Below, piece by piece: positions 2,988 to 19,200 of a DNA stretch of 25,556 nt. Below the pieces are notes generated by a model. The model made no database searches. It saw only the letters and a program-made list of their open reading frames with translations, and had not been told where the DNA came from. Each line of letters begins with the position of its first letter. Position 1 is the first letter of the stretch. The DNA is taken from IMG/VR virus record IMGVR_UViG_3300006925_000132, positions 1 to 25,556 of that record; one strand, 5' to 3'. This DNA is from a virus. Made by a program: the position numbers and the translations under genes.

Positions 2988-3590
2988 TTAGTATGGTGTT
3001 GGTAAGTCATCGCCAGCATTGTTTGGTGCTGTCTCGACTTCCCCATCTAAGTTCCACTCTTTAGGTAGGTCTGAGTTATCAAGCCACCAAGACTTACGCC
3101 ATTTACCACTATGTCCTCCGCATATTACAGGGTCATTAGTGCTGCAGGTAAAGTCTGGACTTTTCTCTGACCGTTTACTGTTACGGTTATCGTACACCAT
3201 TTGTTTACAGAAAGGACATGTAAGGTCATCTCTGTATTTGTTTTGTTTTTCCATCTTTTTAACTACGCTTCCTAGCATGTCACCAGCTGGTTGTACACCT
3301 GGCTCTGTACTATCTTTTACTTCAAGTCCTACTGCACCTAGCTTTTCTTCTATTGACATCATATCAAAAGATTCTTGCGTAACAACAGTAGGCATATCAA
3401 CAAGTTTTTCTATGTAAACAAAATACATATCTAACTGTTCATCTGTCCATGTTGTTTTATCTGCAGGTAACTTCTTTAATTGTGCATACTGATTTGCAGA
3501 ACCAAGTATCTTGTTAAGAGTCTCTGGTGATTCTACATTAGCAGTAATACCTTGCACTGTTTCTGCTATAAACTGTACATCTTGACTCAT
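2988..3590 (-). CDS. Zinc-binding protein linked to recombination gene, 200 aa
   Basis: Two-part protein. Residues 1-115 are acidic and helical. Residues about 124-170 hold CPFC, then a later Cys in FTCSTND and another in VICGGHSGKW, a probable four-ligand zinc module; the C-terminus is acidic (GDDLPTPY). It begins inside the stop of the Rad52-like gene (ATGA), so the two proteins are made together. Phage annealing proteins are often co-encoded with an accessory or nuclease partner, but I see no nuclease motif here. The zinc module with basic and aromatic residues around it (KWRKSWWL) suggests nucleic-acid binding. Function otherwise unknown. Confidence 0.65.
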   Translation of the reverse strand: MSQDVQFIAETVQGITANVESPETLNKILGSANQYAQLKKLPADKTTWTDEQLDMYFVYIEKLVDMPTVVTQESFDMMSIEEKLGAVGLEVKDSTEPGVQPAGDMLGSVVKKMEKQNKYRDDLTCPFCKQMVYDNRNSKRSEKSPDFTCSTNDPVICGGHSGKWRKSWWLDNSDLPKEWNLDGEVETAPNNAGDDLPTPY

Positions 3591-4154: not shown

Positions 4155-4196
4155 ACTACTTTCTGCCGAAAGCATAAGCCCGAGGCAGAAAGAAGT
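4155..4196 (-). other. Intergenic hairpin upstream of Rad52-like gene
   Basis: Arms CTTTCTGCC (4159-4167) and GGCAGAAAG (4184-4192) pair perfectly over 9 bp around a 16-base loop. After an A/A mismatch, ACT (4155-4157) pairs with AGT (4194-4196). It fills the only gap between two leftward genes in this area and has no U-run after it, so it is not a classic intrinsic terminator. In overall size and 16-base loop it resembles the hairpin at 10214-10258. An mRNA-processing or stability role is an inference. Confidence 0.6.
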
Positions 4197-8897: not shown

Positions 8898-9120
8898 GTC
8901 GACTTCTCTCGAACCTCTTGGCAGAGAGAGAAGGAGACATGACTGAGTGGTATGTCGTAGGGCAACGATGTAACTCAGTCACACTCCAATAGCTACGTAC
9001 GTGTAGCTTGTAACACACCTTCATAGTTTCTTCGCCTAAGCTACTACTTACTATTACTACTATGTGCTACAAGCTACTCACAGAATCACTTGCGTGACTT
9101 TGGGCTATGCTGTGAATAGC
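8898..9120 (-). other. Highly structured intergenic region (possible cis-RNA)
   Basis: A 252-base gap (8878-9129) with no gene but dense pairing. Stem 1: CTTCTCTC (8903-8910) with GAGAGAAG (8926-8933), extended through a GA/GA internal loop by GTC/GAC. Stem 2: TGACTGAGT (8940-8948) with ACTCAGTCA (8973-8981), enclosing TCGT/ACGA. Stem 3: GTAGCTTGTA (9003-9012) with TACAAGCTAC (9068-9077), then CAC/GTG after one mismatch. Stem 4: GCTA plus TCACAG (9073-9083) with CTGTGA plus TAGC (9110-9120), enclosing TCAC/GTGA around a GCAA tetraloop on the leftward RNA. Stems 3 and 4 share bases 9073-9077, so they exclude each other. This could be a leader, attenuator or processing element for the MoxR/vWA cluster. 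Confidence 0.6.
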
Positions 9121-10201: not shown

Positions 10202-10213
10202 TGTATCCTTTCT

Positions 10214-10258
10214 TAGACAGCTTCGTGCTGAACCCGTGAGAGCGAAGCACGAAGTCTA
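10214..10258 (-). other. Intergenic hairpin
   Basis: CTTCGTGCT (10221-10229) pairs with AGCACGAAG (10246-10254) around a 16-base loop; a further TAGA (10214-10217) pairs with TCTA (10255-10258), leaving CAG as a 3-base bulge on one side. It occupies the whole gap between two small leftward genes. There is no U-run. The 16-base loop starts with GAA and ends with CGA on the given strand, as does the loop at 4168-4183. Confidence 0.6.
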
Positions 10259-10271
10259 TCTTATCTTTTAA

Positions 10272-10475
10272 TTAAAAGGGTGAATCTTCAAAGATAAACT
10301 TTGACGCTGTTATATTTAATGCGTCTAAGTCACTTGCTATCTTTGCGTCAACTAATCCCTCATGGTATGCAGTTATTGCATTTTCAATCATCGTGTTTAG
10401 TTTATTAATTTCTGCAGCATTTAATATAGGTTTGATTATATCTAATGCATTTTTAATTTCGATTATGTTATCCAT
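10272..10475 (-). CDS. Hypothetical small helical protein, 67 aa
   Basis: Not recognised. A helical, slightly acidic protein with heptad-like spacing (IIEIKNALDIIKPILNAAEINKLNTMIENAITAYHEGL), suited to dimerisation or binding another protein, then ALNITASKFIFEDSPF. There is no cysteine and no nucleic-acid motif. AAAGGA is 8 bases before ATG 10475. Hairpins lie on both sides (10507-10534 and 10214-10258), so the gene could be released as its own mRNA if those are processing sites. Confidence 0.6.
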   Translation of the reverse strand: MDNIIEIKNALDIIKPILNAAEINKLNTMIENAITAYHEGLVDAKIASDLDALNITASKFIFEDSPF

Positions 10476-10591: not shown

Positions 10592-10831
10592 TCATCTGAA
10601 TGCCAATCGCATTTGTGTTAACTTACTTAATGGTCTACGAGATACTTCCCATAGGTCTTGTCCATTCATATATGCTTGGTTAGCACAGTCAACGTAATGA
10701 ATGTTAAGTGGATACTTAATTAGTTCTCCACTACTATCTCGTTTCGTACCTGGTTTATAGTATGCATCTTTATGAAAGATTATAGGGTACGTACATACTC
10801 TACATATTTTCTTAGTTTTAAATTTAGTCAT
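10592..10831 (-). CDS. Small zinc-binding protein, 79 aa
   Basis: CRVC (about residues 10-13) and HYVDC (about 45-49) give CxxC...HxxxC ligands for one zinc; the middle is basic (FHKDAYYKPGTKRD) and the tail RRPLSKLTQMRLAFR is strongly basic, so nucleic-acid binding is likely. AAAGGA precedes ATG 10831. I do not recognise the family. It is one of the first genes downstream of the leftward promoter, a place where phages often encode host-takeover or transcription-modifying proteins. Confidence 0.65.
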   Translation of the reverse strand: MTKFKTKKICRVCTYPIIFHKDAYYKPGTKRDSSGELIKYPLNIHYVDCANQAYMNGQDLWEVSRRPLSKLTQMRLAFR

Positions 10832-10902: not shown

Positions 10903-10952
10903 ATATGTTCTATAGTATCTACCAAAGGGGTTGATAGATACTAACAACATAT
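10903..10952 (-). other. Long two-part intergenic hairpin
   Basis: Outer stem ATATGTT (10903-10909) with AACATAT (10946-10952); inner stem TAGTATCTA (10913-10921) with TAGATACTA (10935-10943); then CC/GG with a small loop and a TTGA bulge on one side. The outer-inner-bulge plan is like the three hairpins at 11.34-11.68 kb, but the sequences differ. It fills the 127-base gap between the genes ending at 10959 and starting at 10831. Confidence 0.6.
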
Positions 10953-10958
10953 AGTTGT

Positions 10959-11276
10959 TTAGAAGTTAGCTTCTTCAGCTTCCATAACCTCTACTTCTAC
11001 AACCTCAGCTACATTAACTTCGGTCTTAGGACCTTTGTAATATAGTGATGTTGGGCTTTGGTTATGTAACTCGAGCAGTTGCTTTTCAGCATCGTATTTT
11101 TGTTGTAACAAAGCCGCAACTGTTGGCTCTGTTTTATCTAAGTGTAACCACATAGTGTTAGTAGTTTTCTTAGTTTTGCTGTATCTAGGCATAGCTGGTT
11201 GTAATCTATCCTCAAATGGTAGTTCTTTACCAGTTACGCCACATATAGGTGTTACCCATTCTCTTGTAGTTGCCAT
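10959..11276 (-). CDS. Hypothetical protein, 105 aa
   Basis: Not recognised. The N-terminal half has VTPICGVTGKELPFEDRLQPAMPRYSKTKKTTNTMWLHLDK, a basic segment that could fold as a small beta domain; the middle is helical (AALLQQKYDAEKQLLELH); and the C-terminus is Val/Glu-rich and very acidic (VEVEVMEAEEANF). It has one cysteine. AAAAGGAGG nine bases before ATG 11276 is one of the strongest ribosome sites in the window, which suggests high expression. A hairpin (11336-11392) lies in its leader. Confidence 0.65.
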   Translation of the reverse strand: MATTREWVTPICGVTGKELPFEDRLQPAMPRYSKTKKTTNTMWLHLDKTEPTVAALLQQKYDAEKQLLELHNQSPTSLYYKGPKTEVNVAEVVEVEVMEAEEANF

Positions 11277-11335: not shown

Positions 11336-11392
11336 TATATATCTAGAGTCTTTCTGACCCCGTGGGTCGGAAGAAAGACTTTGAGATATATA
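11336..11392 (-). repeat. Repeated hairpin, copy A
   Basis: Outermost TATATATCT (11336-11344) pairs with AGATATATA (11384-11392); next AGTCTTTCT (11347-11355) pairs with AGAAAGACT (11372-11380); next GACCC (11356-11360) pairs with GGGTC (11364-11368) around CGT; GGA (11369-11371) is bulged. This gives 23 base pairs with two small interruptions. The middle stem, inner stem and GGA bulge are the plan shared with copies B and C. It lies in the leader of the 105-residue protein gene. Confidence 0.8.
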
Positions 11393-11396
11393 CAAC

Positions 11397-11483
11397 TCAT
11401 ATGTTCATTATGTGACAAACCTCGCAATAGATAACGCTATTTTTATTTGGGTGGTCATTAGAACAAGTGTATTTATTAGGCAT
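11397..11483 (-). CDS. Tiny zinc-finger-like protein, 28 aa
   Basis: ATG 11483 is preceded by AAGGAGATACT, a textbook ribosome site, and the frame ends with TGA at 11399-11397. The 28 residues contain CSNDH (Cys7, His11) and YCEVCH (Cys20, Cys23, His24), enough ligands for one zinc finger, with a polar Asn/Lys-rich linker between them. Similar very short Cys/His peptides are common early phage genes. It sits between two copies of the repeated hairpin and directly downstream of the leftward promoter, so it would be among the first proteins made. It could bind nucleic acid, including the neighbouring hairpins; that is speculation. Confidence 0.6.
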   Translation of the reverse strand: MPNKYTCSNDHPNKNSVIYCEVCHIMNI

Positions 11484-11510
11484 AGTATCTCCTTAACATA
11501 ATATAGAATC

Positions 11511-11544
11511 AGACGTTCTGACTCTATGAGTCGGAAGAACGTCT
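11511..11544 (-). repeat. Repeated hairpin, copy B
   Basis: AGACGTTCT (11511-11519) pairs with AGAACGTCT (11536-11544); GACTC (11520-11524) pairs with GAGTC (11528-11532) around TAT; GGA (11533-11535) is bulged on the same side as in copies A and C. It lies in the leader of the 28-residue zinc-finger-like gene. Confidence 0.8.
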
Positions 11545-11550
11545 TATGCT

Positions 11551-11640
11551 TTAGTGTGTAGTTATATATAGATTACATATCCTTACAAGGGAACTTAAAG
11601 TAACCATATATCTCTTTAAATTAAAGCATCTAGTATTCAT
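11551..11640 (-). CDS. Possible tiny ORF, 29 aa
   Basis: An open frame from ATG 11640 to TAA at 11553-11551 lies between hairpin copies B and C, in the same position that the zinc-finger-like peptide has between copies A and B. The peptide is basic and slightly hydrophobic. Its only ribosome-site candidate (AGAAGG) is too close to ATG 11640; an internal ATG at 11607 has AAAGAG upstream and would give 18 residues. Coding is doubtful; it may simply be spacer. Confidence 0.2.
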   Translation of the reverse strand: MNTRCFNLKRYMVTLSSLVRICNLYITTH

Positions 11641-11678
11641 ACCTTCTGACTCTGTGAGTCGGAAGAAGGTATGTATAC
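11633..11678 (-). repeat. Repeated hairpin, copy C
   Basis: GTAT (11633-11636) pairs with ATAC (11675-11678); after a T/T mismatch CATACCTTCT (11638-11647) pairs with AGAAGGTATG (11664-11673); GACTC (11648-11652) pairs with GAGTC (11656-11660) around TGT; GGA (11661-11663) is bulged. It is the copy nearest the leftward promoter, starting about 35 bases into the predicted transcript. Confidence 0.8.
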
Positions 11679-11720
11679 AAGAAGATATATTTTTCTATAA
11701 GCTTCTGTAATTATGTACCT

Positions 11721-11749
11721 ATTACAAGTGTATGACTAGCATATGTCAA
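11721..11749 (-). promoter_or_regulatory. Leftward sigma70-type promoter
   Basis: On the leftward strand, TTGACA (11749-11744, perfect -35) is followed after exactly 17 bases by TGTAAT (11726-11721, five of six -10 bases). Transcription would start near 11714 and run into hairpin C. It is the best promoter match found in the window by eye and probably drives the whole leftward (early) arm. Confidence 0.7.
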
Positions 11750-12042: not shown

Positions 12043-12855
12043 ATGGTAGATACTACCAATAATGTAATCTGCATAGCAGAGGGCTGTCGAAAGAAACTTA
12101 AGGGCAAGCAACGCAAATTTTGCTCTCCTACTTGCCAAAAACGACAGTTTGCTAGAGACAAATACTATAACAAAGAAGATGACATAAAACCTATCAATAT
12201 AGATAGAAAATCAGACGATGGCGACTATGCTAGTGTTAGAAGGGGTCAGTATTATCGAGCTTTCGTAAGCGAAGGAATAGCTGACCAAGTTGCAACAGGC
12301 GACATGACGGTAGCTGACGCAGCTTCCATGCTAGGTTGCACGTCTGCTACTGTCTCTCGCATGCTCGCTGCCTACAAGATAGACAGTAGAAATGAGATAG
12401 CTGCAGAAGATTGGGAGTTATCAGAGGATGCCAAAGACGCATTAGAAAATTTCGCTACCTTCCGACAAAAATACTTCCGAACCGAACTAGGTAAACAGTA
12501 TGACACCGCGCCTTTTCATACTAACTGGATAAATAACATTATAGATAGTATAGAAAACGGTAAAGAGTTACTTATCTTAAGCCCCCCTAGACATGGAAAG
12601 ACAGAACTGTTAATACATTTTGCTGTGTATCAGATATGTAAGAATCCAAACACACGTATCATGTGGGTAGGTGGGAACGAAGATATAGCTAAGAATGCCC
12701 TTAGCGCAGTCCTAGACGTGCTTGACACGAACGAAGAACTCAGAGAGGCATATTGTATGCCAGGAACATCTTTTAAGCCAGATAACCGCTCTGGTAAGAA
12801 CTGGACGCAGAATCAGTTTACTGTAGGTACTCGTACAGTTGCAGGTATTAAATAA
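12043..12855 (+). CDS. Large terminase, N-terminal part (zinc finger + HTH + Walker A), ends at in-frame TAA
   Basis: A 270-residue open frame. Residues 10-31 hold C-x4-C and C-x3-C (Cys10, Cys15, Cys27, Cys31), a zinc ribbon; residues about 86-113 (GDMTVADAASMLGCTSATVSRMLAAYKI) form a helix-turn-helix like those of small terminases; residues 179-187 (LSPPRHGKT) are the Walker A loop of the packaging ATPase. Translation stops at TAA 12853-12855, before the Walker B motif, and the same frame continues beyond. The fragment alone cannot be an active motor. A single change TCA to TAA would explain the stop. The start has only a weak GAAAG upstream. Local GC and C-ending codons look higher here than in the second part. 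Confidence 0.85.
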   Translation: MVDTTNNVICIAEGCRKKLKGKQRKFCSPTCQKRQFARDKYYNKEDDIKPINIDRKSDDGDYASVRRGQYYRAFVSEGIADQVATGDMTVADAASMLGCTSATVSRMLAAYKIDSRNEIAAEDWELSEDAKDALENFATFRQKYFRTELGKQYDTAPFHTNWINNIIDSIENGKELLILSPPRHGKTELLIHFAVYQICKNPNTRIMWVGGNEDIAKNALSAVLDVLDTNEELREAYCMPGTSFKPDNRSGKNWTQNQFTVGTRTVAGIK

Positions 12856-12861
12856 CCAACA

Positions 12862-13965
12862 ATGGTAGCTGTAGGTAAAGGTGGAAAGATTCTATCACGT
12901 GACTGTGACATAATTATTGCTGATGACATTGAAGACCACCAAACTACTATGCAACCTGGTGCAAGAGAAAGTACTAGACAATGGTGGACTACAACATTAT
13001 CAAGTCGTAAAGAGGAACACACAGCTGTAATTGTTATTGGGTCAAGACAACACCCTGATGATTTATATAACCATCTTTTAGAATCAGATAACTTTACAAG
13101 CATTGTAGAAACTGCACATAAGCTAGATTGTGCAATACCTGAACACTTACAAGAAGAACACATTGACTGTATGTTATGGGCAAACAAAAGAACGTTTAAG
13201 TGGTTAATGTCTAGGTTGCACTCTGCTGAATCTACAGGTGGTAGGCAGACATTTGAGATGGTGTACTTTAATCAAGCATACGTAGAAGGTACGCAAATAT
13301 TTACTATGAATGTTATTGACCAATGTATGCGACCTGACTTAGTACTAGGACAAGTATATAAAAACTTATACTTAGTAGCTGGACTTGACCCTGCATCGTC
13401 AGGGTATCAAGCATCAGTACTATGGGGTATAGACCAATACCGTGGTGAGTTATATCTAGTTGACCTAGAAAACAGAAGAGGTGGAGGTATTAGAGCTGCC
13501 TTAGACCAAATGGCTGAGTGGGCGCATCAATACGATTGTAGACATTGGATAGTAGAAGAAAACGGTTTCCAAACAGCTATACGTCAAGATGCTGCAATAA
13601 AAGAATTTACACTACGTAGTGGTATAACAGTACAAGGACACTTGACTGGTAAAAACAAACACGACCCACTATATGGTGTAGGTGCTATGGCAGATTTGTT
13701 CGAAGACAAGAGAATACATCTACCTACTGGTGATGGGGAAAGTAGTGCAAAAGTACAGAAATTTAGACAACAACTGTTATACTTTGATGGAAAACCTGTT
13801 TCCAAAAGAAACAAAGAGAAAACTGATATAGTTATGGCTAGTTGGTTTCCGATGAAAGTTTTTAGGCGTATGCAAAAAGAACATACTGCTGACATGGGAT
13901 TAGACTATAATCCTAGTTATGGAGATTACAAGATGACCGATACAAATGAGGCACCATGGGCATAG
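12862..13965 (+). CDS. Large terminase, C-terminal part (Walker B + RNase H nuclease)
   Basis: The same frame as the preceding part resumes after the stop; the first ATG is 6 bases downstream. Near its start is ILSRDCDIIIADDIEDH, the Walker B and catalytic Glu of the packaging ATPase. The nuclease half has VAGLDPASSG (first Asp), WIVEENG (Glu) and KTDIVMASWF (last Asp), the RNase H-like metal site that cuts concatemeric DNA during headful or cos packaging. With the upstream part the protein would be about 640 residues. No ribosome site precedes ATG 12862, so if the stop is real this part depends on readthrough or reinitiation. Its end overlaps the portal start by 10 bases, the normal terminase-portal order. 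Confidence 0.88.
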   Translation: MVAVGKGGKILSRDCDIIIADDIEDHQTTMQPGARESTRQWWTTTLSSRKEEHTAVIVIGSRQHPDDLYNHLLESDNFTSIVETAHKLDCAIPEHLQEEHIDCMLWANKRTFKWLMSRLHSAESTGGRQTFEMVYFNQAYVEGTQIFTMNVIDQCMRPDLVLGQVYKNLYLVAGLDPASSGYQASVLWGIDQYRGELYLVDLENRRGGGIRAALDQMAEWAHQYDCRHWIVEENGFQTAIRQDAAIKEFTLRSGITVQGHLTGKNKHDPLYGVGAMADLFEDKRIHLPTGDGESSAKVQKFRQQLLYFDGKPVSKRNKEKTDIVMASWFPMKVFRRMQKEHTADMGLDYNPSYGDYKMTDTNEAPWA

Positions 13966-16278: not shown

Positions 16279-19200
16279 GTGTTACTAGGAGATAGGAATG
16301 AGTATTATGATGTACTCAATGCAAGAAGACAACTAGATTTACAAGCGTTGCAATATGGTTCTATGTTTAAAGAAGACCCAGAAGCAATACTTAATAACTT
16401 AGAAAAATACCCTACTGAATTAGATACAGGCACTGCATTAGGACTAAGTATTTTAGGTATACCCCCTGAATTTCAAGCTGTAGCTGATATAGCTCAGGAA
16501 AGTAAAACAAGTAAAATATATAACGAAGCTAAGTTATGGAAACAATTACAACAAGAATTTCAATATGACCATGTAGAAGACAATATGAAGATGTCTTTTG
16601 GTGATTTATTAACAGGCGGCTTTATGCCAGGTGGAGCTAAACCAGGTGATGTGCAATACGGTGTATGGGCATTTGCTGCTTTAGATGCTTTTTTTCAAAC
16701 AGTAGGACCTTCAGGTAAATGGTCTGTACTAGCAAGTGCTACAAACGCTTTATCACCAGGTCAACCTATGAAAGTAGGTAGGTCACAAGCATATCTTAGA
16801 GATTTACGCGAATACGATAAACTATTAGAAAAAGGTTATACCTCACAAAAAGCACAAGATATGTTGCAAATAGACCTTAGTGGTACTCAAGTACAAGGTT
16901 TAGGACAAGAACTAGGTACGCTCGAAGAATTAAAACAACAAATAGATATGGTACAAGAAGCACACAAGATGGGTGGAGAACCTGTACTTGCTGCTATGTT
17001 TAGAGCTGTAGCTAATGGAGAACCGTTAAACTTTGATAGAGCTACTAAAATTACATTAGAATCTGTTAAAGCAGAAAAAACACCTTATTATGTAAAACTT
17101 ACTAATGAGTACGGTATGTCTCCTGATGAAGCTAGAGACTTTATTTACAAAAACATAGGTACTCCTTTAGCAGGACAGTATGATGCACAAACAGGTGAAA
17201 GTAGATATGCTTTTAATGAAGATGGTGAAATAAGTTACACATCCTCTTACAATCCAAACAAAGTAAATTTTTATGCTGGTAGAGCTAGACAAAGATTTTT
17301 CTGGGCTGGACAGTCACAACAAGATTATTACAGACCTGAATGGGCAGATAGAGATTTATTACTTGAATACTCACCAGGTAGAGTAACTGCAGCAGAAGTG
17401 TTTGCACCAGGTTCTAAATCATTTGATATACTATCTGGTTTAACTGATGCTGGTTATCAGCTTGTACCAGAATTATTTGCTGGTAAAGGTGTTAAAGGTG
17501 CTAAGAACTTACAAAAAGGTCTACGTAGAGTAAATCCTTTAATGGAAGCAATAGACCAAGGTACTGTTACAAAAGGTAAAGGTAGTCTTAGAAAAGTTAA
17601 ATTAGATTCTAAAAGTTTAGCTGATAATGTATTAGATGAAGTAGGTCCAATTATTGATGGAGCTACAGGAGATGGTAATCTAAGTAAAGTTACAGATAGT
17701 GTTGGTAGATTAATTACTAATAAAAATACAGTAAAAGATACAAAACAAACAAAAAAAGCTTTTAGGAAACTTAAAAAAGAAAATTCGTTATTTGGTAGAG
17801 TTCCTAAATTTTATCAAACAACAAAACAAGAGATACTAAATCAACCTACAAACGTAGAGTTCTTTAAAGCTATAGCTGATGAAGATAATTTATATTTATT
17901 AAATACAAATCCAATTACAAAACATCTACCTGCACAAGTTAAATCAGATTTAACAAATATAGATGATTGGCAAAATGTACAAAACGTATTTGACCAAATG
18001 ATTTCTACTGGATACAACATTATTAATGATGTAGGACAAAATGTACCTTATACTCTTCCTGGCAAGATACTACCAAAGACAGGTTCTCTAACTATAAATA
18101 AATTTTTACAATCATCTGGTATAAATCCTACTGCTTCATATAGAACATTTGGTAGCTGGGCAGGAGAAAAATCTAGAAAAGTTAGACAAAGTGTATTTCC
18201 TGTAAGACGTAAAAGCAAAAACCCACAAAAACTTGTAGAAGTAGGTCGAGAAGCTGTAATAGACACAATGGATTCTGTTGCAGATAAAGCAAGTGTACTT
18301 GCTAAGTTAGAAAATGTTACACCTGATTATGCCTTAGAAGCTATGGGTAAATTAGATTTACCTAAGTTTGAAAAATATTTAGGTTTTAGTTCTAACTTTA
18401 ACTCAAGTTACAATCCTTATTACAGAAAGTTATTAGGAGTAGTACCTGACATGGGTATTCCTCTAAATAATTTAAACGTAGGATTAAAACAATTAACATC
18501 TCATTTACAAATTAACGGATACGATGTTGAATCTGGTAACAAAATATTAAAAGAATTTATGGAAATTAATCCATTAGATAAAACTGCTTATAGAGATTTT
18601 GCATTTAACCAAGCATCAAGAGATTTAAAGCTAGTAAGAGCTAAAGGTGGTAACTCAGAATATATAGCAGACCACGCAGCAGAAATGTTTGAAGGGTTAA
18701 AGAAAATGAAAATATATTCCACTGATAAAGACAAAAACATTCTTCCTAACATAGGTTCTAATTACCGTGGACATGAAATAAATGAATTAGGAAATGCTGT
18801 AGACGATATTGGTGAAGTTGTAACTACTATGAGTGGTTCATTATTTAGTGAAATGCAAGATAATATTGCTCCTTTAATGGACTATAGACTTATAGAACGT
18901 GCAGTAGGACCACTATTTAAAGCATATCCAGATAATCAGTTTAAAGCTACATCAATACTTACTGATACTAAAAAGTATGCAAAGTATAAAACACAGCATT
19001 TTAGTTGGAACAAAGCTGATGACGCTATACCTAATCCTTTTGATGATGGAATACTAAATGTTAAAAGATTAGAAAATAACTTTGTAAGCAATCTTATGTC
19101 TTTTTACACAAGAAATTTATTTAAACCTTTAGTTCTTATGAGAGCTGCTTTCTTTACACGTGTGTTTATGGAAGAACAAGCACGTATAGCAGTTAAAGGA

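Follow-up and report, generated by a model that had tools for sequence, protein, structure and literature searches.

A family of bulged hairpins, whose shape rather than sequence is preserved by evolution as judged from aligned copies, recurs between the early genes of a group of related phages and is probably a cis-acting punctuation of the leftward early transcript. The DNA from which the analysis started (the window) is a virus record of 25,556 bases that carries three copies of the hairpin, A, B and C, among the following features, listed from right to left:

11721 to 11749, minus strand: candidate sigma-70-like leftward promoter (TTGACA-N17-TGTAAT)
11733 to 11748, no strand: conserved dyad TGACTAGCATATGTCA, seen in the alignment, overlapping the candidate -35 element of the leftward promoter
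11638 to 11673, minus strand: core of hairpin C, the first in the leftward transcript, at a leader position
11511 to 11544, minus strand: core of hairpin B
11397 to 11483, minus strand: mini-gene between B and A, encoding a 28-aa CxxC-type peptide and preceded by a Shine-Dalgarno sequence; another ORF stands here in the relative L007
11347 to 11380, minus strand: core of hairpin A, extended by a 3x2 internal loop and a 12-bp lower stem to about 11336-11392
10959 to 11276, minus strand: F0 gene (105 aa), which comes after the last hairpin in the arrays
10913 to 10943, minus strand: intercistronic hairpin built on another plan, immediately following the 105-aa gene, with similar ones in L020 and L085

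The three hairpins exist as originally predicted, since a search of the window with the core pattern (up to three mismatches allowed) matched A, B and C only, and nothing on the opposite strand, versus a chance expectation of 0.00 in 100 shuffles. Their outer stems have 9 (A and B) or 10 (C) Watson-Crick pairs, all ending in TTCT/AGAA, and are followed by a 5-bp inner stem (GACYC/GRGTC) with a 3-nt loop and by a GGA bulge on the 3' side of the plus strand, which reads UCC on the leftward RNA. Copies A and C carry additional lower stems beneath the internal loop or mismatch, C having a 1x1 mismatch beneath its 10-bp stem and an extended fold within 11628-11684. The leftward RNA folds with energies of -28.5 (A), -17.3 (B) and -24.5 kcal/mol (C), corresponding to z values against shuffled sequence of -6.6, -4.3 and -6.7 on this strand. 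Covariation among the three copies is narrower than had been claimed, as three of the nine shared outer pairs (positions 2, 3 and 5, counting from the outer end) covary rather than four, while the covarying inner pair (C-G/T-A) was confirmed. Similarly, the placement of all copies in the early leader holds for C, whereas a small gene lies between A and B. The leftward promoter proposed at 11721-11749 is plausible, its upstream half lying in a block conserved in relatives, but its -10 element is not conserved and promoter-like matches in the region are no more frequent than expected by chance. The conserved block holding the dyad, which is possibly an operator, is also present in relatives without hairpins.

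To collect relatives, we searched IMG/VR with the N-terminal part of TerL and with the portal protein, which yielded some 150 loci belonging to a single phage group, and an inverted-repeat scan of these loci (with a one-sided 3-nt bulge required) recovered the same plan many times, the bulge lying almost always on the same side. The 32 seeds of a first covariance model (R1) had been selected by pairing and, because of this selection, a second model (R2) was built with seeds mainly from the class with a 4-nt bulge. R2 finds hairpins A, B and C of the window again (E-values of 3e-4 to 2e-3), and 86 of its 87 matches lie on the leftward strand. The model search of related phage contigs that had been suggested with the original prediction thus recovered a covarying family of at least 68 distinct hairpins, spread over some 40 related phage contigs. 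Its members have at least 9 bp in the outer stem and a short cap (GAC..GTC), and on the leftward strand their bulge of 3-4 nt lies on the 5' side. Matches on near-complete contigs are confined to the early region beside terL, with none in the rest of the contig. The family is missing from many relatives whose TerL is about 90% identical and is therefore not essential to the phage group. No family in Rfam 15 scored at or near its gathering score, the only matches being sub-threshold chance ones, and a literature search of incomplete coverage found no described element sharing the hairpin plan, in agreement with the earlier view that none had been described. The hairpin element and its concerted apex (see below) appear to be new, while the proposed role is of a known kind.

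In the R1 alignment, 93% of cells are paired and double changes occur in 16 of the 18 pairs, filling 148 cells compared to 40 in shuffled and at most 35 in slid versions; in the R2 alignment, 95% of cells are paired, with 237 double-change cells versus 77 (shuffled) and at most 75 (slid controls). As a less biased test, we took two patterns that fix nothing beyond the core and the innermost outer pairs and ran them against 2.9 million viral contigs of IMG/VR. Each match on a contig carrying this group's genes had 6-10 further consecutive Watson-Crick pairs beyond the pattern, compared to 0-2 for matches on contigs without these genes, and outer stems were found by these core-only patterns in this phage group alone. 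The hairpin element is therefore group-specific and its stem selected, so that the predicted selection on the structure is upheld both by models from two bulge classes and by a scan free of any outer-stem requirement.

Pairing within the stem is strict. Neither G.U nor A.C occurs in the 612 cells at positions 1-9 of the outer stem (68 distinct parsed hairpins), an absence that is partly selected, since the parse threshold was at least 7 of 9 Watson-Crick pairs and the seeds too favoured such pairs; from position 10 outward pairing is looser and mismatches are frequent. The contrast with G.U frequencies elsewhere is large (20 of 124 pairs in T7 R sites, 9 of 96 in local U-tract hairpins, i.e. 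terminators). Read on the leftward strand, the mismatches at the two commonest mismatch columns are A.A, C.C or A.C and never G.U; read on the opposite strand, several of them would become G.U, which favours the leftward orientation that had been predicted. Inside the core stem the same strand test was uninformative, G.U and A.C both being near zero. The complete lack of G.U in the nine core outer pairs weighs more heavily than anything else against reading the element as RNA alone, as it also fits a hairpin formed at the DNA level. According to such a reading, a single-stranded or cruciform DNA hairpin of the leftward strand would be recognised by a replication or recombination protein and the early-gene slots would be prone to recombination; this reading, which the organisation of the genes around the hairpins also touches, we judge distinctly unlikely.

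That organisation obeys one rule throughout: a hairpin, then n units of mini-gene plus hairpin, and then the conserved gene F0 of about 100 aa. The distance from stop codon to hairpin start is mostly 7-17 nt, and the mini-genes encode 20-85 aa, often with a CxxC motif, some slots being without an ORF accepted by the gene caller used. Comparison of the window with L007 revealed nearly identical flanks and the same hairpins, with the 28-aa peptide replaced by an unrelated 43-aa ORF, and a similar exchange of mini-genes was seen among L020, L022, L054 and L062. The exchanged segment begins close to the start codon and ends at the stop codon, the flanking hairpins and the Shine-Dalgarno region being kept, and replaced mini-gene pairs reach local BLOSUM62 alignment scores of 18-23, which we took as no detectable homology. 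That ORFs are exchanged so precisely while the hairpins around them are conserved, as several pairs of relatives show, speaks for the DNA reading, as does a phage-encoded single-strand annealing protein (weak Rad52 match). However, the hairpins remain with the slot and not with the gene, the swaps are explained by ordinary homologous recombination within the conserved intergenic DNA, placement beside stop codons is equally well accounted for by RNA, and neither a recombinase nor an HUH-type protein was found among the proteins scanned.

The apex of the hairpin behaves differently from the stem. The inner stem opens with G-C in all 68 distinct parsed hairpins, followed by A-U in 63, and the loop is short, while the bulge on the leftward strand is UCN, GYN or UUCC, the GYN class missing the first bulge U. 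A single bulge class is used in 24 of 25 distinct genomes (shuffled mean 3.4, maximum 9; none of 5000 shuffles as high), which partly reflects shared descent, although identical outer stems occur in 0 of 117 within-genome pairs. The outer stem CAGTATTCT carries two bulge classes, L096 differs from L142 by one and the same TTCC to TTAC change in its two hairpins with outer stems unchanged, and the classes are scattered on the TerL tree (where some of the 'none' labels denote loci not searched with the models). From one bulge class per genome despite never-repeated outer stems, we infer a shared trans-acting reader; short-tract gene conversion is an alternative explanation for the concerted change of the bulge.

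If there is a reader, it could be an RNA-binding protein of phage or host that does not cut but controls the translation, stability or transcript elongation of the early region. The near-fixed apical module, the genome-wide concerted bulge classes and the position of the copies near stop codons are all consistent with this, and the bulge of HIV TAR that binds arginine offers an analogy to the bulge and its G-C/A-U step; the GYN class, however, is without the first bulge U. No candidate binder emerged from the proteins considered. The 28-residue zinc peptide, originally named as a possible partner, is swapped out in L007 while the same hairpins stay, and was therefore rejected as the reader. 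The 105-aa F0 protein was rejected as the specific reader because the F0 family occurs, further downstream, in hairpin-less relatives; its structure model gave no significant structural match, and its bL28-like CxVTGK motif received no support from Pfam, NCBIfam or Foldseek. A CRVC protein is likewise present in hairpin-less relatives, its four C/C/H/C residues being invariant in all aligned relatives, including these. On balance, binding without cutting is unlikely. Tiny CxxC proteins are numerous among the products of the early genes (window 10592-10831, minus strand; families F1, F2, F6-F9 and F12-F14).

Hairpins also occupy other gaps of the leftward operon. Strong ones of other plans lie on the minus strand of the window at 10913-10943, 10207-10279, 9003-9077, 8921-8996 and 4155-4196, none with a following U-tract and several with z of about -5. 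In L160, where the family is absent, intercistronic hairpins lie at 2761-2807, 3034-3084 and 3354-3415 (minus strand), having stems of at least 10 bp, mostly with a 1x1 mismatch and a further stem, and an open loop in place of the bulged cap. Within the family itself, an intrinsic-terminator test found no U-tract directly after the stem, and the only leftward terminator-like match (11527-11503) overlaps hairpin B with a different pairing and an AT-rich tail. That strong hairpins free of U-tracts stand in several other gaps counts for a punctuation role. It would also suit generic intercistronic stem-loops that protect mRNA 3' ends or insulate translation, with the apex as folding nucleus and no dedicated reader, as would the use of other hairpins by hairpin-less relatives; yet stability alone explains neither the constant bulge nor its concerted change within genomes, making this reading very unlikely.

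The role that we propose, with somewhat less than even credence on the present computational analysis, is that the early mRNA is processed, or has its 3' ends formed, between cistrons, the main rivals being RNA binding without cutting and the DNA-level hairpin; RNase III-type processing, one of the options in the original prediction, is the most likely predicted role. A trans-acting factor of host or phage would recognise the apical bulged module in RNA, and this reading of the hairpin would lead to endonucleolytic processing or 3'-end formation between cistrons. Each mini-gene would thereby gain its own mRNA end, much as RNase III sites serve the T7 early region, and the outer stems would differ probably because identical copies could recombine or cross-pair and so delete the genes between them. 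The near-fixed apical sequence counts against a processing role, as it exceeds the known requirement of RNase III. A dedicated form of early-gene punctuation, in which a lineage-specific reader coevolves with the single bulged apex and the strictly Watson-Crick, never-repeated stems mark fixed slots that exchange tiny zinc-binding early genes, is possible but doubtful.

The window also offers some hints on the phage and its host. An in-frame stop divides TerL, on the plus strand, into two ORFs of the same frame (12043-12855 and 12862-13965), where the relative G001 (L169:12009-13931) shows one uninterrupted ORF of 640 aa; the stop is either a nonsense change or an assembly error. Searches of Pfam, PDB sequences and 50,697 phage records gave no significant match for a 1933-aa protein (16279-22080, plus strand) that is nevertheless conserved across the group. 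The proteins most similar to TerL and portal come from Streptomyces phages and one unclassified phage (23-27% identity), and portal relatives occur at 76-77% on a contig in an Actinomycetota MAG and at 74% in a Flavobacteriaceae MAG, which gives no more than a hint of an actinobacterial host. Neither R1 nor R2 matched at these MAG loci. The two Actinomycetota relatives, L188 and L190 (76 and 77%), lie near both ends of one 54-kb contig (PBPX01000048.1), which holds either two phages or a duplicated assembly.

If the punctuation role is correct, an uncultured marine phage group has a structured nucleic-acid family absent from Rfam and a way to separate and swap tiny early genes. The hairpins would then be a boundary marker for very short phage genes overlooked by gene callers, and the search for the reader would be directly testable through strict pairing and concerted bulge changes.

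Several known systems share traits with the family. The N4 virion-RNA-polymerase promoters, which are DNA hairpins, likewise have a 5-bp stem and 3-nt loop and lie ahead of early genes in a phage with a giant protein; they were rejected as a model because the 1933-aa protein of the window is not similar to N4 vRNAP (hhalign probability 0.1%) and lacks an RNAP motif set. Integron attC sites are also hairpins that conserve structure while varying in sequence, carry unpaired bases specific to one strand and closely follow the stop codons of small genes; attC-type cassettes were dismissed, as the phage hairpins stay put when the gene is replaced and no integrase was found among the proteins scanned. 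The put element of HK022 is a two-stem element of about 70 nt, one per early promoter, that binds the zinc-binding domain of the RNAP beta' subunit (PMC9378689). Like put, the family places a structured element with bulged stem-loops near an early phage promoter, the first hairpin lying just downstream of the leftward promoter candidate, and its apical classes could track the polymerases of different hosts if the RNA bound host RNA polymerase and suppressed termination or pausing. Unlike put, the hairpins are single-stem and several per genome, one after each small gene with none in the rest of the contig, and the put arrangement of two stem-loops in one element per early promoter was not found in the family; as the put model does not predict a copy after every small gene, the antitermination role proposed earlier is highly improbable. 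Like the T7 RNase III sites (R0.3-R1.3), the family consists of irregular hairpins without a U-tract that stand in the leader and separate the many small early genes of one transcript, which is assumed here. T7 R sites have an upper stem of 9-10 bp, short internal loops and 16% G.U, whereas the phage family combines a bulge with a near-fixed cap some 5 bp long, lacks G.U in the core stem and has concerted bulge classes. As to the T7 trait of two stacked stems of about 10 bp with an internal loop between them, many copies show a lower stem, a mismatch and a 9-10 bp stem, but their cap is about 5 bp and their bulge one-sided. Because position and number of the hairpins resemble those of the T7 RNase III sites, we take a role in processing or 3'-end formation as the likeliest.
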